A DNA stretch of 32,212 nt, taken from Candidatus Altimarinota bacterium. Its GTDB lineage: Bacteria > Patescibacteriota > Gracilibacteria > UBA1369 > LOWO2-01-FULL-3. The position numbers were made by a program, and so were the translations under genes. The stretch is from positions 1 through 32,212 of the forward strand of contig JAESSS010000091.1 of the NCBI GenBank assembly GCA_016763975.1, read 5' to 3'. Under the pieces are notes generated by a model. The model saw only the letters and a program-made list of their open reading frames with translations. It made no database searches and had not been told where the DNA came from. This document shows, piece by piece, positions 1 through 19,105 of the stretch (position 1 is its first letter; every line of letters starts with the position of its first letter).

Positions 1-79
1 TAAGCTTATAAACAAATCATTCTCTAGAACTGTGCCCGGCGCGCGTGACGCGCGCGCGGGCGAGTTCCCTGTCAGCTAC
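1..79. repeat. 79-bp direct repeat, copy 1 (3' element of membrane module A)
   Basis: Bases 1-79 match bases 1735-1813 with no mismatch. On the minus strand the identity begins exactly at the TAG stop codon of the upstream membrane-protein gene (76-78) and runs through a GC-rich hairpin to the window edge, so the true length may be greater. Just inside the coding region the two copies diverge at once. This makes it a conserved 3' untranslated element and not part of a duplicated coding block. It may work as a terminator or RNA-stability element, or be a mobile or recombining repeat. Confidence 0.9.
34..61 (-). terminator. GC-rich hairpin after membrane module A (terminator-like)
   Basis: A near-perfect inverted repeat of 28 bases: a 5-bp outer stem (GCCCG/CGGGC), a single bulged G, a 7-bp inner GC stem and a TGA loop. 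It lies 15 bases after the stop codon of the last module A gene. The bases after it on the minus strand are only weakly T-rich, so it is not a textbook intrinsic terminator. It may instead block exonucleases at the 3' end of the mRNA. An identical copy sits at 1768-1795. Confidence 0.55.
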
Positions 80-774
80 AGCAGGAGAGGAGTGAAGATG
101 TTGAAGAGGCCAGCGATGAGGAAGGTCCACGCAAGAGCAGCAGGGGAGGATGCCGCCTGCTGCCTGGTGGTGCCCCTCAAGAATATCACCCCTACCGCCA
201 TGCAAAAGGTCAAGAATCCCAGCACTTTTATACTTTCGATGCCTAGAAAGTATAGGGACGTAAGAGTTATAGCGCTGGCAAACACCAACGCTAGAGACAG
301 GATTCCGGCATTGAACTGATGGACTTTCGGGTGTGCCGAGAAAATGTTGTCCAGCACCCAAATACCAAAGGCCACGAAGCCCAGGCCGGCGGAGACGATG
401 ACTCCGGTGACAAAGACTTCCATGGACATGGTGCCCATGAAGAGGGGCACTGTGGTTATGGCCACGGTGATCACCCCTAGCACAAGGCCACAGTAGCCAA
501 AGTCCCGGAAGTAACGGCTATTAGGCATCAAGTTCCTTACGATGAAAAGAGGCACCACTAGAGCCACTAGGAAAAAAACCCCAGCAACTGGCCCCTCGCT
601 GCCTACCACCACCTTAATGATGAAGAATAAAGCGCCGGAAACAAATACGGCAAATGCTATATCCCTGATGGTGCTTGGCTCCTCCGCCTCCAAACGGTGG
701 TCGAGGAGGTAGCGCGCACTGAAACCGAAGAGAATTGCGGAGAGGGTTAATCCGGTGATACTCGTTATTAACAT
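76..774 (-). CDS. Polytopic membrane protein, module A large subunit (232 aa), family not recognised
   Basis: I do not recognise this family. The protein is almost entirely hydrophobic, with about seven or eight predicted membrane segments and no visible catalytic motif or signal peptide. It is a paralogue of the 229-residue protein at 1810-2499: both carry YLxDxRLE, EPSxIRDI and AVFVSGAL near the N terminus and end GLFxIFTPL. The start ATG overlaps the TAA of the preceding gene (TAATG), so translation is probably coupled. It is the last gene of a three-gene minus-strand operon and is followed by the 79-bp repeat with its hairpin. A transport, membrane-shaping or sensing role cannot be told apart from sequence. 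Confidence 0.75.
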   Translation of the reverse strand: MLITSITGLTLSAILFGFSARYLLDHRLEAEEPSTIRDIAFAVFVSGALFFIIKVVVGSEGPVAGVFFLVALVVPLFIVRNLMPNSRYFRDFGYCGLVLGVITVAITTVPLFMGTMSMEVFVTGVIVSAGLGFVAFGIWVLDNIFSAHPKVHQFNAGILSLALVFASAITLTSLYFLGIESIKVLGFLTFCMAVGVIFLRGTTRQQAASSPAALAWTFLIAGLFNIFTPLLL

Positions 775-1133
775 TATTTAACTCCCAAGGTAAGTCCGTA
801 AAGAATGATGGCGGCCAATGACAGGTAAACCAAGCCCTCGTAAAGGGCAAAGCGATCGCTCTGCTGGATCTTGTCCCAGATCCATTTGCTGAAGGCCAGC
901 ACAGACAAAGATAGCAATATTATTACGTCGTAGTGGCTGTCGTACCTCAACAATCCTTTGTATGCCCCGAAGAAAAATACCACACAGAGCAGGACCGGGA
1001 TCCCAAACGAAAAGCGAAGTTTTGCGATGGGGATCCTCTTTGCTGTACCAATCATGTCCTGGCGAAGACGGACTACTCCTCCCATGAGGAAGTAGATCAA
1101 AGAAGCAGCGCCAAAGGCGAAGAAAATAGACAT
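774..1133 (-). CDS. Small four-helix membrane protein, module A middle gene (119 aa), unknown
   Basis: An unrecognised protein with about four membrane segments. It is a tandem paralogue of the gene just upstream (1133-1501): both start MSIF, share GGV-RL, KLRFS, SKW-W-KI and FALYEGL, and end GVK. By eye roughly half the positions are identical. It overlaps both neighbours by one base in TAATG junctions, which points to coupled translation and fixed stoichiometry. The basic loop after the first helix and the conserved FALYEGL before the last helix are the best candidates for a functional site. The paralogous pair plus the large protein may form a membrane complex; this is inference. Confidence 0.72.
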   Translation of the reverse strand: MSIFFAFGAASLIYFLMGGVVRLRQDMIGTAKRIPIAKLRFSFGIPVLLCVVFFFGAYKGLLRYDSHYDVIILLSLSVLAFSKWIWDKIQQSDRFALYEGLVYLSLAAIILYGLTLGVK

Positions 1134-1501
1134 TATTTAACTCCCGTAAGTGTGTAGCAAATGACGGCGGCGGCCAAAAGGTAGGCCAGTCCCTCGTAAA
1201 GGGCAAAGCTATTGCTCTTCTGGATTTTGCCCCAGACCCATTTGCTGAGAGTAAGAGCAATTATTCCACCAAGCCCCAAGACGACAAGGTGGTGGAGAGG
1301 CCGGGGCATCAACCATAATTCTGGGGAGATCCCAAAGATAAAGATAAGGCTCAGCAGGGCTGGCACCCCCAACGAAAACCGAAGTTTTGAGGGAGTAAGC
1401 CTCTCTGCTGTCCCCTTCCTGTACTTGTGAAGACGGATTACTCCTCCCACGAGGAATAACAGGCAAGAAAGAAGGCCAAAGGCGACATAGAAAATAGACA
1501 T
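1133..1501 (-). CDS. Small four-helix membrane protein, module A first gene (122 aa), unknown
   Basis: First gene of the module A operon. The start is well fixed: on the minus strand an AAAGGAG Shine-Dalgarno lies seven bases before the ATG, inside the 64-base leader that is also conserved in front of module B. The protein has about four membrane segments and the same MSIF start, KLRFS, SKW and FALYEGL motifs as its 119-residue neighbour, so the two arose by local duplication. Its TAA stop overlaps the next ATG. I recognise no known family. The clear Shine-Dalgarno contrasts with most other genes in this window. Confidence 0.74.
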   Translation of the reverse strand: MSIFYVAFGLLSCLLFLVGGVIRLHKYRKGTAERLTPSKLRFSLGVPALLSLIFIFGISPELWLMPRPLHHLVVLGLGGIIALTLSKWVWGKIQKSNSFALYEGLAYLLAAAVICYTLTGVK

Positions 1502-1565
1502 GGCTCAGCTCCTTTGCTGAAAAGTTTCAAAAAGAATTCTCTACAAAAATTTCAAAGAACAAAAT
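1502..1565 (-). promoter_or_regulatory. Conserved 64-base leader of module A
   Basis: This stretch immediately upstream of the first module A ATG matches 2867-2930 in front of module B, with only two substitutions and two compensating one-base indels. It holds the Shine-Dalgarno and an AT-rich part containing AATTCTCTACAAAAATTTC. I see no convincing -35/-10 pair in it. The conservation is higher than that of the genes behind it, which suggests selection for a regulatory role or recent gene conversion. Confidence 0.6.
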
Positions 1566-1593
1566 TCTGGAGGAAGTGCAATATGTTATGACT

Positions 1594-1664
1594 TTAAGAG
1601 AGGGATGTCAATTTGCGGAGAGCCCCTTGTCAATTGAGGTGGAAACTCTTGTAGAGAACTCTTT
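1594..1664 (-). pseudogene. Fragments resembling the 3' end of dxr
   Basis: On the minus strand, bases 1622-1594 read LRKLTSLS-stop, against LRKLTSIE-stop at the end of the intact dxr. They share a 15-base exact match (CTCCGCAAATTGACA), and the stop lies 29 bases before the conserved leader, against 27 bases for real dxr. A second segment (1664-1626) reads KSSLQEFPPQLT, matching KITLQDFLRKLT of dxr codon for codon with about half the residues identical. The simplest reading is that the membrane module was duplicated together with the tail of dxr, which then decayed. The match is short, so chance is not fully excluded. Confidence 0.5.
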
Positions 1665-1734
1665 CCGGAAAGATAGGTGACAGAGAACAGATTTGCCGAC
1701 AAGTAAATTTTTGGTGCGCGGACGCCCATCAATT

Positions 1735-1813
1735 TAAGCTTATAAACAAATCATTCTCTAGAACTGTGCCCGGCGCGCGTGACGCGCGCGCGGGCGAGTT
1801 CCCTGTCAGCTAC
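1735..1813. repeat. 79-bp direct repeat, copy 2 (3' element of membrane module B)
   Basis: Identical to bases 1-79 over the whole visible length. On the minus strand it begins at the TAG stop (1810-1812) of the 229-residue membrane protein and includes the same GC-rich hairpin. To its left lie about 70 bases (1665-1734) in which I see no feature. Confidence 0.9.
1768..1795 (-). terminator. GC-rich hairpin after membrane module B (terminator-like)
   Basis: Second copy of the 28-base GC-rich hairpin (12 paired positions, one bulged G, TGA loop), 14 bases after the stop codon of module B. There is no strong T tract on the minus strand after it, so Rho-independent termination is uncertain. Confidence 0.55.
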
Positions 1814-2499
1814 CGCATGAGCGGAGTGAATATATCGAAGAGACCAACGATGAAGAAGGTCGCCGTAAAAGCGACGAAGGAAGAGGCCTCATGCCTCTTG
1901 AAACACAATAAGAGTCCCATCCACGTAACCAGGACGCCATTGCAAACGCCCCACGCAAGGCCTTCGAGGCCGATGCTCTTGAATACCCCCATGTTCCAAC
2001 CTACAGCGAATGACAACATCACAAAGATTATCTTGTTGTCCATAAGCACCAACGTTGCGTCCCCGAAGATTAATTTAAACAAACCCCAAAGGCCAGCGAA
2101 GAGGAACACCAGGCCGAAAGCGACCGTGATGACATTGATAACCAAGGTGCTGTCCATGACCATGAACAAAGCGCTCATGGACACAACGACTGCCCCCAAG
2201 ATAAGACTACCGTGGCCAAAAATACGGAAGTGACCGCCACTCTTTGGCACGCTTACGACAATGAAAAGGGGCATGATCAATGCCGTTATGGAAGAAACCC
2301 AGCCAATAGGTCCCTCCAACCAACCTCCCGCCAAGGTGACGACAAACAATAAAGCGCCGGAGACAAATACGGCGAATAATATGTCTCTGATGGCGCTCGG
2401 CTCCTTCACCTCCAAGCGATAGTCTCGGAGATATACTGCGCTGAAGGCGAAAAGTGATACGGCGAGGCCTAATCCGATGAGAACGATTGCTAGTGACAT
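1810..2499 (-). CDS. Polytopic membrane protein, module B large subunit (229 aa), family not recognised
   Basis: Paralogue of the 232-residue protein of module A with the same length, hydrophobic profile (about seven or eight helices) and conserved ends (YLRDYRLE, EPSAIRDI, AVFVSGAL, GLFDIFTP). The best DNA match between the paralogues is patchy, strongest around 2349-2414 against 625-690, while the middles have diverged. A Shine-Dalgarno (AAGGAGC) lies between the stop of the preceding gene and this ATG, unlike the one-base overlaps in module A. No known domain is recognised. It is probably co-translated with the 118-residue protein upstream. Confidence 0.74.
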   Translation of the reverse strand: MSLAIVLIGLGLAVSLFAFSAVYLRDYRLEVKEPSAIRDILFAVFVSGALLFVVTLAGGWLEGPIGWVSSITALIMPLFIVVSVPKSGGHFRIFGHGSLILGAVVVSMSALFMVMDSTLVINVITVAFGLVFLFAGLWGLFKLIFGDATLVLMDNKIIFVMLSFAVGWNMGVFKSIGLEGLAWGVCNGVLVTWMGLLLCFKRHEASSFVAFTATFFIVGLFDIFTPLMR

Positions 2500-2509
2500 T
2501 ATAGCTCCT

Positions 2510-2866
2510 TCATACTGGAAAATTTAGGAAAAAAGGACGGAGGAAGCCAAGGAGGCCCACACTCATGAACGTTGCCGCAATGATGGCAGAACATGACTTC
2601 GCATAACTCCTCGGAAACGAACTAAGCACGACTGCTAATATCATGCTGACACAGCTAGCCACAACTCCTACGTCCCCGACCTCGAATAGATCAAAACTCG
2701 TGAGGAAGAAGAGCACCACGAGCGGTAGAATGTGCCTATCCCACGAGGTCCTTGCCTCTCGACGAACATCTCTGGAGAATTTGAATAGATTCCAAAGGCC
2801 AAAGCCAAAGATTCCTACTCCCCAAAAAACTGGGAGGGAAAAAAGAATATCGATGAAAGTAAACAT
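2510..2866 (-). CDS. Small membrane protein, module B first gene (118 aa), unknown
   Basis: A hydrophobic protein with about four membrane segments, in the same position and of the same size as the small proteins of module A, and with the same kind of Shine-Dalgarno (AAGGAG) and leader. Its sequence has little direct identity to them: it lacks KLRFS and FALYEGL and has WDRHILPLVVLFFL and a SFPRSYAKS loop instead. It is either a very diverged paralogue or a replacement. Function unknown. The start is fixed by the Shine-Dalgarno seven bases upstream. Confidence 0.68.
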   Translation of the reverse strand: MFTFIDILFSLPVFWGVGIFGFGLWNLFKFSRDVRREARTSWDRHILPLVVLFFLTSFDLFEVGDVGVVASCVSMILAVVLSSFPRSYAKSCSAIIAATFMSVGLLGFLRPFFLNFPV

Positions 2867-2930
2867 GGTTCAGCTCCTTATGCTGAAAGTTTCGAAAAGA
2901 ATTCTCTACAAAAATTTCAAAGAACAAAAT
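2867..2930 (-). promoter_or_regulatory. Conserved 64-base leader of module B
   Basis: Second copy of the module leader (see 1502-1565), lying between the dxr stop codon, 27 bases away, and the first module B gene. Any promoter for the module would have to be here or inside dxr. Co-transcription with dxr is equally possible, because no hairpin terminator separates them. Confidence 0.6.
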
Positions 2931-2956
2931 GAAAAGAGGTGGGTTATGGTAGGACT

Positions 2957-3874
2957 TTATTCGATACTTGTCAATTTGCGGAGGAAGTCCTGGAGAGTAA
3001 TCTTCTCTTGGAGAAATTGTGGCATTAGGGATTCTTCGAGGGTGAGGAATTCGCGGATTTTGCCAGCGTGGAATGCGCTTAAAACTAGATCGATTCCCGG
3101 GAGGTGAGTGGGGAAATCGTGGGGGGCGAATTTTGCGGGAGCGATGTTGCGAGGGGGGAGTTCGCGATTGAGGGCGCGTAGGAGGGCGTTTTCGATGTGT
3201 TCACGCATGTCGGGTTCGGCGATGTAGGCGAGGTTGCTGCCGTCGGTGAATTCGATCATTCCGTGGATTTGGCATTCGGGGTGGATTCGCACTTCGATTT
3301 TGTCCAAAGGGAAGTCGAAGAGGTAGTGGGCTTCGAGGATTTCGAAACCTTTGTTGATGAGGAGGGCTGATTCGACGGTGACTTTGGGACCCATTTTCCA
3401 GCGGGGATGGGCGAGGATTTTTGCTAAAGTTGCGTCGGCGAGAGGAGTGTTGAGGAGAGGGCCGCCGGAGCAGGGGAGGATTAATTTTGAGGGGGTTTTG
3501 TCTGTGGATTGGAGGATTTCGTAAATTGCGTTGTGCTCGGAATCGATGGGGATGAGGTTGGTCAGGCCTTCGGCGATGATGGATTCTTTGTTGGCGGTGA
3601 GGAGGATTTTGTTTTGGCGCAGGGCTTCAAGGGAGGGTGCGATTCCGGCTAGTCCGGAGAGAAGATTTACGACGATGTCGGAGGAGGCGATGAGGGGAAG
3701 AATGTCTTCGCGAGAAGAGAGAACTGTTTTGCAGGAGAATTTTTCGCCCTGTTCAGCGAGAAGTTGCGCGTTTGTGTGACCGGTGATGGCGGAGAGCTGG
3801 AGATTGTGTTTTTCGACCAATTCTAGGCATTGTTTGCCGAGATTTCCGGTGGATCCGAGGATTAATATTTTCAT
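2957..3874 (-). CDS. dxr: 1-deoxy-D-xylulose 5-phosphate reductoisomerase, short form
   Basis: Second enzyme of the MEP isoprenoid pathway: NADPH-dependent conversion of 1-deoxyxylulose 5-phosphate to 2-C-methylerythritol 4-phosphate in the cytosol. Seen: the nucleotide-binding start LGSTGNLG (residues 7-14), TANKES (93-98), the metal site IDSEHNAI with Asp111 and Glu113, SGGP (136-139), HPRWKMG, NKGFE with Glu178, and the IHPE-QIHGM loop (198-206). At 305 residues it is far shorter than the usual 380-400. The loss is spread over several loops, and the C-terminal helical domain is cut down. All metal ligands remain, so activity is plausible. A TGT-TATTCT extended -10 lies just upstream; the Shine-Dalgarno is weak. 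The membrane module follows on the same strand. Confidence 0.93.
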   Translation of the reverse strand: MKILILGSTGNLGKQCLELVEKHNLQLSAITGHTNAQLLAEQGEKFSCKTVLSSREDILPLIASSDIVVNLLSGLAGIAPSLEALRQNKILLTANKESIIAEGLTNLIPIDSEHNAIYEILQSTDKTPSKLILPCSGGPLLNTPLADATLAKILAHPRWKMGPKVTVESALLINKGFEILEAHYLFDFPLDKIEVRIHPECQIHGMIEFTDGSNLAYIAEPDMREHIENALLRALNRELPPRNIAPAKFAPHDFPTHLPGIDLVLSAFHAGKIREFLTLEESLMPQFLQEKITLQDFLRKLTSIE

Positions 3875-3981: not shown

Positions 3982-4492
3982 ATTATCAGCAAGAGACTAC
4001 GTATAAATCAGGCTATCACCTCAGCAACCGTGCGATTAATTGGCGCGGAAAGTGAACAGTTCGGCATTATGGGCCGGGAAAAAGCTATGAAAATGGCGCA
4101 GGATTTGGAGCTGGATCTGGCTGAAGTAGCCCCAAAAGCAAATCCACCAGTGTGCAAAATCATGGATATGGTAAATACCAATATCATCAGAAAAAAGTAG
4201 AGACCAAACATCGCAAGATGCAGAAGAAAACTGAGGTAAAAGGTATTCGTATCGGATTTAAAACCGGTGCACACGACATGGAAGTTAAGGCAAAACGAGC
4301 AAGAAAATTCATGGAAGATGGCAATACTGTAAAGTTTCATTGATCTTCCGAGGAAGAGAAGCTATATATAAGAACCTTGCGTGAACAAAAATGCTTAAAT
4401 TTCAAGAGAGCCTAGCGGAAATCTGCAATATCGAGACCGCACCAAAATCTCAAGGAAATACCCTGATAATGATTCTAACCCCTAAAAAATGA
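3982..4492 (+). pseudogene. infC: Translation initiation factor IF-3, broken by several frameshifts
   Basis: IF-3 binds the 30S subunit and checks the initiator codon. The reading starts at ATT (3982), the rare start typical of infC, then RLRINQAIT, a full N-terminal domain and PPVCKIMD. One T is missing near 4167; the sequence resumes in another frame as YGKYQYHQKKVETKHRK to GNTVK. A second T is missing near 4335-4337; it resumes as SLIFRGREAIYKNL. Around 4379-4391 an in-frame TGA disappears if one base is added before CGT and one A removed, giving REQ-MLKFQ. The end IMILTPKK-stop is normal and its TGA overlaps the rpmI ATG. Protein-level conservation is high throughout, so this is either a very young pseudogene or clustered sequence errors. 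Confidence 0.85.
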
Positions 4493-18703: not shown

Positions 18704-19105
18704 GGGGATGTATTGGCATTCGACAGGATGATTCAGGTTTGATCAATTGCATTTCGGGGGTTGCTTTGTCCCCCCGTATATCCGTCAAAGCAAAATAAGT
18801 GCTAAAAACACTATCAGTGAGGCTGACTATAGTTACGCTCGCGTACCTGTACCAGCTTTCGCTTAATTCCGTTTTTTAACGGGATTGGCTCACCTCCTGA
18901 CTTCTTACTAGGGGGAGTGGGTCTTATTAGTAAGATAAGGTCTCTCTGAATGCTTCGGCTTTGAGACTCGAAAACTTAGAAGATAAGCGCTAGCACTTTT
19001 GCTTTTCCTTTATTCTAGCGACGAAAATTAACAGGATAAGCTATGAATGTAGAAATTGACTGGCCTCATCTCTGGACCCGGGTTCGACTCCCGGCATCTC
19101 CACCA
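18704..19105 (+). ncRNA. ssrA: Transfer-messenger RNA (tmRNA), one-piece
   Basis: Rescues stalled ribosomes and tags the nascent peptide for degradation. The 5' end GGGGATG pairs with CATCTCC before the encoded ACCA 3' end (one G-U), and the T arm reads CCGGGTTCGACTCCCGG. The 5' body has TATTGGCATTCGACAGG, close to the standard tmRNA start. The likely resume codon is GCT at 18801, after AAAATAAGT. The tag of 21 residues starts AKNTISEADY and ends VPVPAFA before TAA at 18864. The tag is longer than the usual 8-15 residues and ends AFA, not ALAA. CCA is genome-encoded. I saw no clear promoter; the hairpin-like GTTC/GAAC just upstream may be a processing stem. Confidence 0.95.

Follow-up and report, generated by a model that had tools for sequence, protein, structure and literature searches.

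Tandem duplication and single-crossover (Campbell-type) integration are processes that leave direct repeats on either side of the duplicated or integrated DNA. At the locus described here, a group of genes that we call cassette B likewise lies between two near-identical direct repeats with distinct outer flanks, although, unlike in a Campbell-type integration, neither an empty-site relative nor a circular donor was found. Each repeat carries a GC-rich stem-loop right after the last gene of a transcription unit, as an intrinsic (Rho-independent) terminator does, but the stem has no U tract behind it. Old duplicates within one genome can also be kept similar by recombination; rRNA operons, whose paralogous copies evolve in concert through gene conversion, are an example (PMC8022953, PMC6002687). 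There it is the genes themselves that are homogenised, whereas at our locus it would be a non-coding spacer that has been homogenised while the genes diverged. A further comparison is offered by integrons, whose gene cassettes carry attC sites (59-base elements; PMC1382264); here too, similar non-coding inverted repeats stand behind mutually diverged genes. We did not find a description of the present locus in the literature.

The host is an uncultured bacterium of the Peregrinibacteria/Peribacteria group, and, judged by dxr, several of its closest named relatives carry the label Candidatus Peregrinibacteria, Peribacteria or Gracilibacteria. The window, by which we mean the whole 32,212-nucleotide stretch of DNA analysed, is contig C76 (G000:C76) of a 1.45-Mb genome in 103 contigs. 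For comparison we use 98 relatives, 352 other genomes of the class, GTDB contigs, IMG/VR, phages and plasmids.

Results

A spacer shared by two diverged genes

Two minus-strand genes at the left end of the window, at 76-774 (232 aa) and 1810-2499 (229 aa), are each directly followed at their 3' side by the same non-coding sequence. A preliminary description of this DNA had claimed that window positions 1-79 and 1735-1813 are identical and that the genes in front of them encode diverged proteins, and both statements hold: 79/79 bases agree, and the proteins share 38-40% of their amino acids. It had also treated the element as 79 nt long, which is not so, since position 1 is simply the end of the contig and the repeat very probably measures about 180 nt. 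The sharp border that it placed at the stop codon is real on the gene side, where identity extends one base past the TAG into the last codon and then falls to 78% of nucleotides (last 20 codons) and to 37-55% deeper inside the genes; on the other side, similarity fades gradually across the spacer. The parts of the repeat are as follows.

1..79, minus strand: left spacer copy, visible part, with the TAG of B_large (76-78), GC hairpin and linker; cut by the contig end
C55:40321-40426: remainder of the left copy, lying where contig C55 ends
1629..1813, minus strand: right spacer copy, full (about 185 nt), behind C_large; matches the left copy perfectly at 1722-1813 and to about 95% elsewhere
26..68, minus strand: GC-rich hairpin, left copy, without a U tract behind it
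1760..1802, minus strand: the same hairpin, right copy, with coordinates set by identity to the left copy

The repeat probably continues on a neighbouring contig

Searching the genome reveals a third match: the last 29 bases of contig C55 equal window bases 1-29, and the roughly 106 nt before them match window 1629-1734 at about 95% identity; about five differences separate the C55 tail from its counterpart within 1629-1721. The end of C55 carries recR, ispE, ispDF and then a membrane-protein gene that we call A (226 aa) and count as a third cassette, while C76 starts with cassettes B and C, followed by dxr. In each of ten relatives from the same family ispDF lies next to dxr (gap 0.07-2.2 kb), and recR and ispE lie beyond ispDF in 9/10, the contig of the tenth ending in ispDF. 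Because ispDF and dxr adjoin in these ten genomes, C55 and C76 very probably join inside the repeat, which is the simplest reading of a 29-nt overlap combined with synteny. A further cassette could be hidden at the join. Among the ten relatives (L049-L058) the dxr-ispDF spacer varies in length and content, and no membrane-protein genes comparable to those of our locus were found in it; this gap may be an insertion-prone site.

With the two contigs joined, the repeat spans about 180 nt at 97% identity, including a perfect run of 92 nt. Comparing the left spacer (B to A) with the right one (C to B), the perfect run begins at the last base before the stop codon and is followed by about 84 matches with three to four mismatches and two gaps, after which the sequences diverge toward the leaders; the identity of the left copy at bases 30-79 is known from one contig end. 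Over 801 aligned sites of the large genes and spacer, the longest identical run in 10,000 permutations was 50, so that the observed 92 was reached in 0/10,000.

Cassettes of orphan membrane-protein genes

The genes between the spacers and the right border of the array are listed below.

76..774, minus strand: B_large, 232 aa, about eight predicted transmembrane (TM) helices, an orphan related to C_large
774..1133, minus strand: B_s2, 119 aa, about four TM helices, 51% identical to B_s1
1133..1501, minus strand: B_s1, 122 aa, about four TM helices
1502..1625, minus strand: leader of cassette B with its promoter-like region (TTGACA-17-TAACAT, 1611-1583); 81% like the C leader
1626..1682, minus strand: spacer stretch resembling the last 60 or so nt of dxr, a possible duplication vestige with moderate support
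1810..2499, minus strand: C_large, 229 aa, about eight TM helices, orphan paralogue of B_large
2510..2866, minus strand: C_small, 118 aa, about four TM helices, with weak similarity to a portion of gene A (C55)
2867..2990, minus strand: leader of cassette C with its promoter-like region (TTGACA-17-TACCAT, 2974-2946); overlaps the 3' end of dxr
2957..3874, minus strand: dxr, DXP reductoisomerase, right border of the array; the left border is ispDF on C55

Cassettes B and C are adjacent paralogous units that have the leader (81%), the large gene and the spacer in common; similarity of C_small to B_s1 or B_s2 was not detected. Within cassette B, the two small genes (774-1501) are in turn paralogous and lie in tandem; at 51% aa identity and dS about 0.4-0.6, they represent a second and younger duplication in the array. 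No relatives of the large proteins were found in the 98 relatives, the 352 class genomes, GTDB contigs, IMG/VR, plasmids or phages, and no Pfam, NCBIfam or PHROGs family reached its cut-off. An AlphaFold2 model of C_large, built from two sequences, gives only the outline of eight helices (pLDDT 44.6, pTM 0.27). The cassette genes (window 76-2866) have a GC content of 0.47-0.53, compared with 0.41 for the window to the right of the array, a high GC3 (0.50-0.66), and a third-position GC skew of -0.12 to -0.20, compared with -0.54 to -0.80 for vanW, ppi, pbp, dxr and ugd; rny (-0.20) is the exception among the nearby minus-strand genes. Since their GC content is higher and their skew weak, base composition hints that the cassette genes were recently acquired.

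Just beyond dxr, infC (translation factor IF3; 3990-4487, plus strand) is split over three reading frames with a TGA. Its pieces are the only IF3_C matches of the genome, and their state would reflect either indels introduced in assembly or genuine decay of a gene that is normally essential. The window also holds a tmRNA gene with an Rfam match (18704-19105, plus strand).

The leaders carry a trace of how the cassettes may have arisen. Up to the ATG the B and C leaders agree at 37/45 positions, compared with 20/60 over the first 60 bases from the ATG, a border at the 5' side that resembles the one at the stop codon. Their promoter-like sites occupy the same place, although the region has seven such sites and chance alone would give 4.5. 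The homology of the two leaders extends into the coding end of dxr, and the B leader begins with CTCCGCAAATTGACA (1620-1606), 15 nt identical to the dxr 3' end (2983-2969). Taken together, the homologous leaders and this 15-nt match point to a tandem duplication that would have begun in dxr. The resemblance of the spacer itself to dxr is less distinctive: its score was matched by 10/1000 dinucleotide shuffles for the right spacer, and the left spacer alone is not significant.

Hairpins, and what they probably do not account for

The question, then, is how two spacers can be nearly the same when the genes beside them are not. B_large and C_large share 58% of their nucleotides (37-80% in interior segments), with dS about 1.0 and dN about 0.52, whereas the spacers are 97% identical over about 180 nt. 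At this level of synonymous and non-synonymous divergence, the identity of the spacers must be far younger than the divergence of the genes, or must be held by something that synonymous sites lack.

One such force would be purifying selection that preserves a functional element at the RNA or DNA level, be it a terminator, an RNA-stabilising 3' end or a protein-binding site kept in both operons. The very stable GC hairpin proposed at the outset is borne out in prediction (-33.9 kcal/mol, z -3.3 to -4.2) and stands right behind the stop codon; the 60 nt there fold at -31.2, compared with -1 to -19 at 25 other gene ends of the window. Gene A ends in a hairpin as well, located between A and ispDF (L004 3400-3475, minus strand) and predicted at -35.8 kcal/mol. 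Because the hairpins of this island are so much stronger than those at the 25 other gene ends, some selection on them is likely, and they may form transcript 3' ends that isolate each cassette from the promoter of the next. What this selection probably does not account for is the identity of the letters. The hairpin behind A is equally strong and of unrelated sequence, so the identity needs a cause other than the hairpin; cassettes probably benefit from ending in a hairpin, but need not share its letters. Moreover, the linker outside the hairpin is perfectly identical, and identity is still about 95% past the 3' element. No U tract follows the stem in the sequence and the terminator scan lists none there, the tmRNA is the only Rfam match in the window, with none at the element, and no copy exists outside the locus. 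These observations weaken the original proposal of selection on the 3' element while leaving room for selection on hairpins; as an explanation of the repeat we consider it improbable, and sequence-level selection on the 3' RNA as the sole cause is unlikely.

The identity might instead be produced by assembly, if the real repeats differ at some bases and the variants were merged, with the break at base 1 marking a repeat that could not be resolved. Indeed, the window starts and C55 ends inside the repeat, with an overlap of 29 nt, and the contig may hold base-level errors, the only infC of the genome being frameshifted. Against this, the flanks are distinct on both sides (coding sequence of B_large versus C_large; C55 tail versus 1629-1721), and the assembler retained the differences in the C55 tail. 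As the flanks on both sides differ, two real copies exist, and an assembly effect would hide a few variants, in bases 30-79. We judge this account, taken as a whole, to have a low probability.

The third reading offered by the preliminary description, a mobile repeat inserting at 3' ends, would here be a small REP/BIME- or MITE-like element placed behind stop codons, and it fits the hairpin, the 3'-end position and the sharp border on the gene side. A repeat of this kind would be expected elsewhere, but in the 1.45-Mb genome the spacer occurs only twice, within a single tandem array, and the rest of the genome yields none apart from a weak partial leader match on contig C56. It is absent at meaningful scores from the 98 relatives and the 352 other class genomes, and absent from viral contigs and from phage and plasmid records. 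We therefore reject this reading, which we hold to be very improbable. The AT-rich leader (about 1514-1576) gave weak matches of 19-39 nt each in 17 genomes, which, given its AT-richness, we take as chance.

Finally, the imperfect inverted repeats, near-identical to one another and placed behind orphan genes that have diverged, suggest an integron-like array in which the element is an attC-type recombination site behind each cassette. This reading is scarcely credible and was rejected: the RYYYAAC and GTTRRRY core sites are absent from both spacers on both strands, the tyrosine recombinases of the genome score below the TIGR02249 integron-integrase cut-off (as in all control genomes), and the cassettes, unlike those of integrons, are multi-gene units with promoter-like sites of their own.

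Probable recombination between spacers

Among the three readings originally put forward, the best fit is recent gene conversion or, in broader terms, a recent recombination involving the spacer. In our interpretation, lineage-specific cassettes of membrane-protein genes would have been inserted between dxr and ispDF, with a spacer of about 180 bp between successive cassettes, and the 79 bases would be the gene-side half of that spacer. In both B and C a promoter-like leader is followed by the small membrane-protein genes (one or two of them) and by a larger gene, and a GC hairpin comes directly behind the final stop codon. The cassettes themselves would be old relatives whose coding sequence has strongly diverged, while the C-B and B-A spacers would have been made alike recently through homologous recombination. 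Either of two routes could lead there: conversion between the two tandem spacers in place, or the gain of cassette B by a single crossover, which would leave a direct repeat of the spacer on each side of it. In line with this reading, the linker and the possible vestige of dxr come close to the hairpin in their degree of identity. We conclude that the locus probably consists of diverged tandem cassettes with a spacer recently duplicated or homogenised by homologous recombination, the route being what we infer from the arrangement of the repeats.

Discussion

We regard this locus as a tidy case of a known process and not as a new kind of element. It also carries a caution: where a non-coding element at the edge of a contig is perfectly conserved, this need not mean a functional RNA, and its limits should be drawn only once the neighbouring contig has been read.

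A more far-reaching possibility, which we put forward tentatively and think rather unlikely, is that the spacer serves as a homology platform with which this lineage swaps or collects fast-diverging orphan membrane-protein cassettes at dxr-ispDF. The leader and 3' spacer would then be conserved and the contents exchangeable, with recombination keeping the borders alike across the population. If recombination does keep the spacers alike, the locus would be a natural example, in a candidate-phyla bacterium, of a conserved regulatory shell around changing membrane-protein contents.
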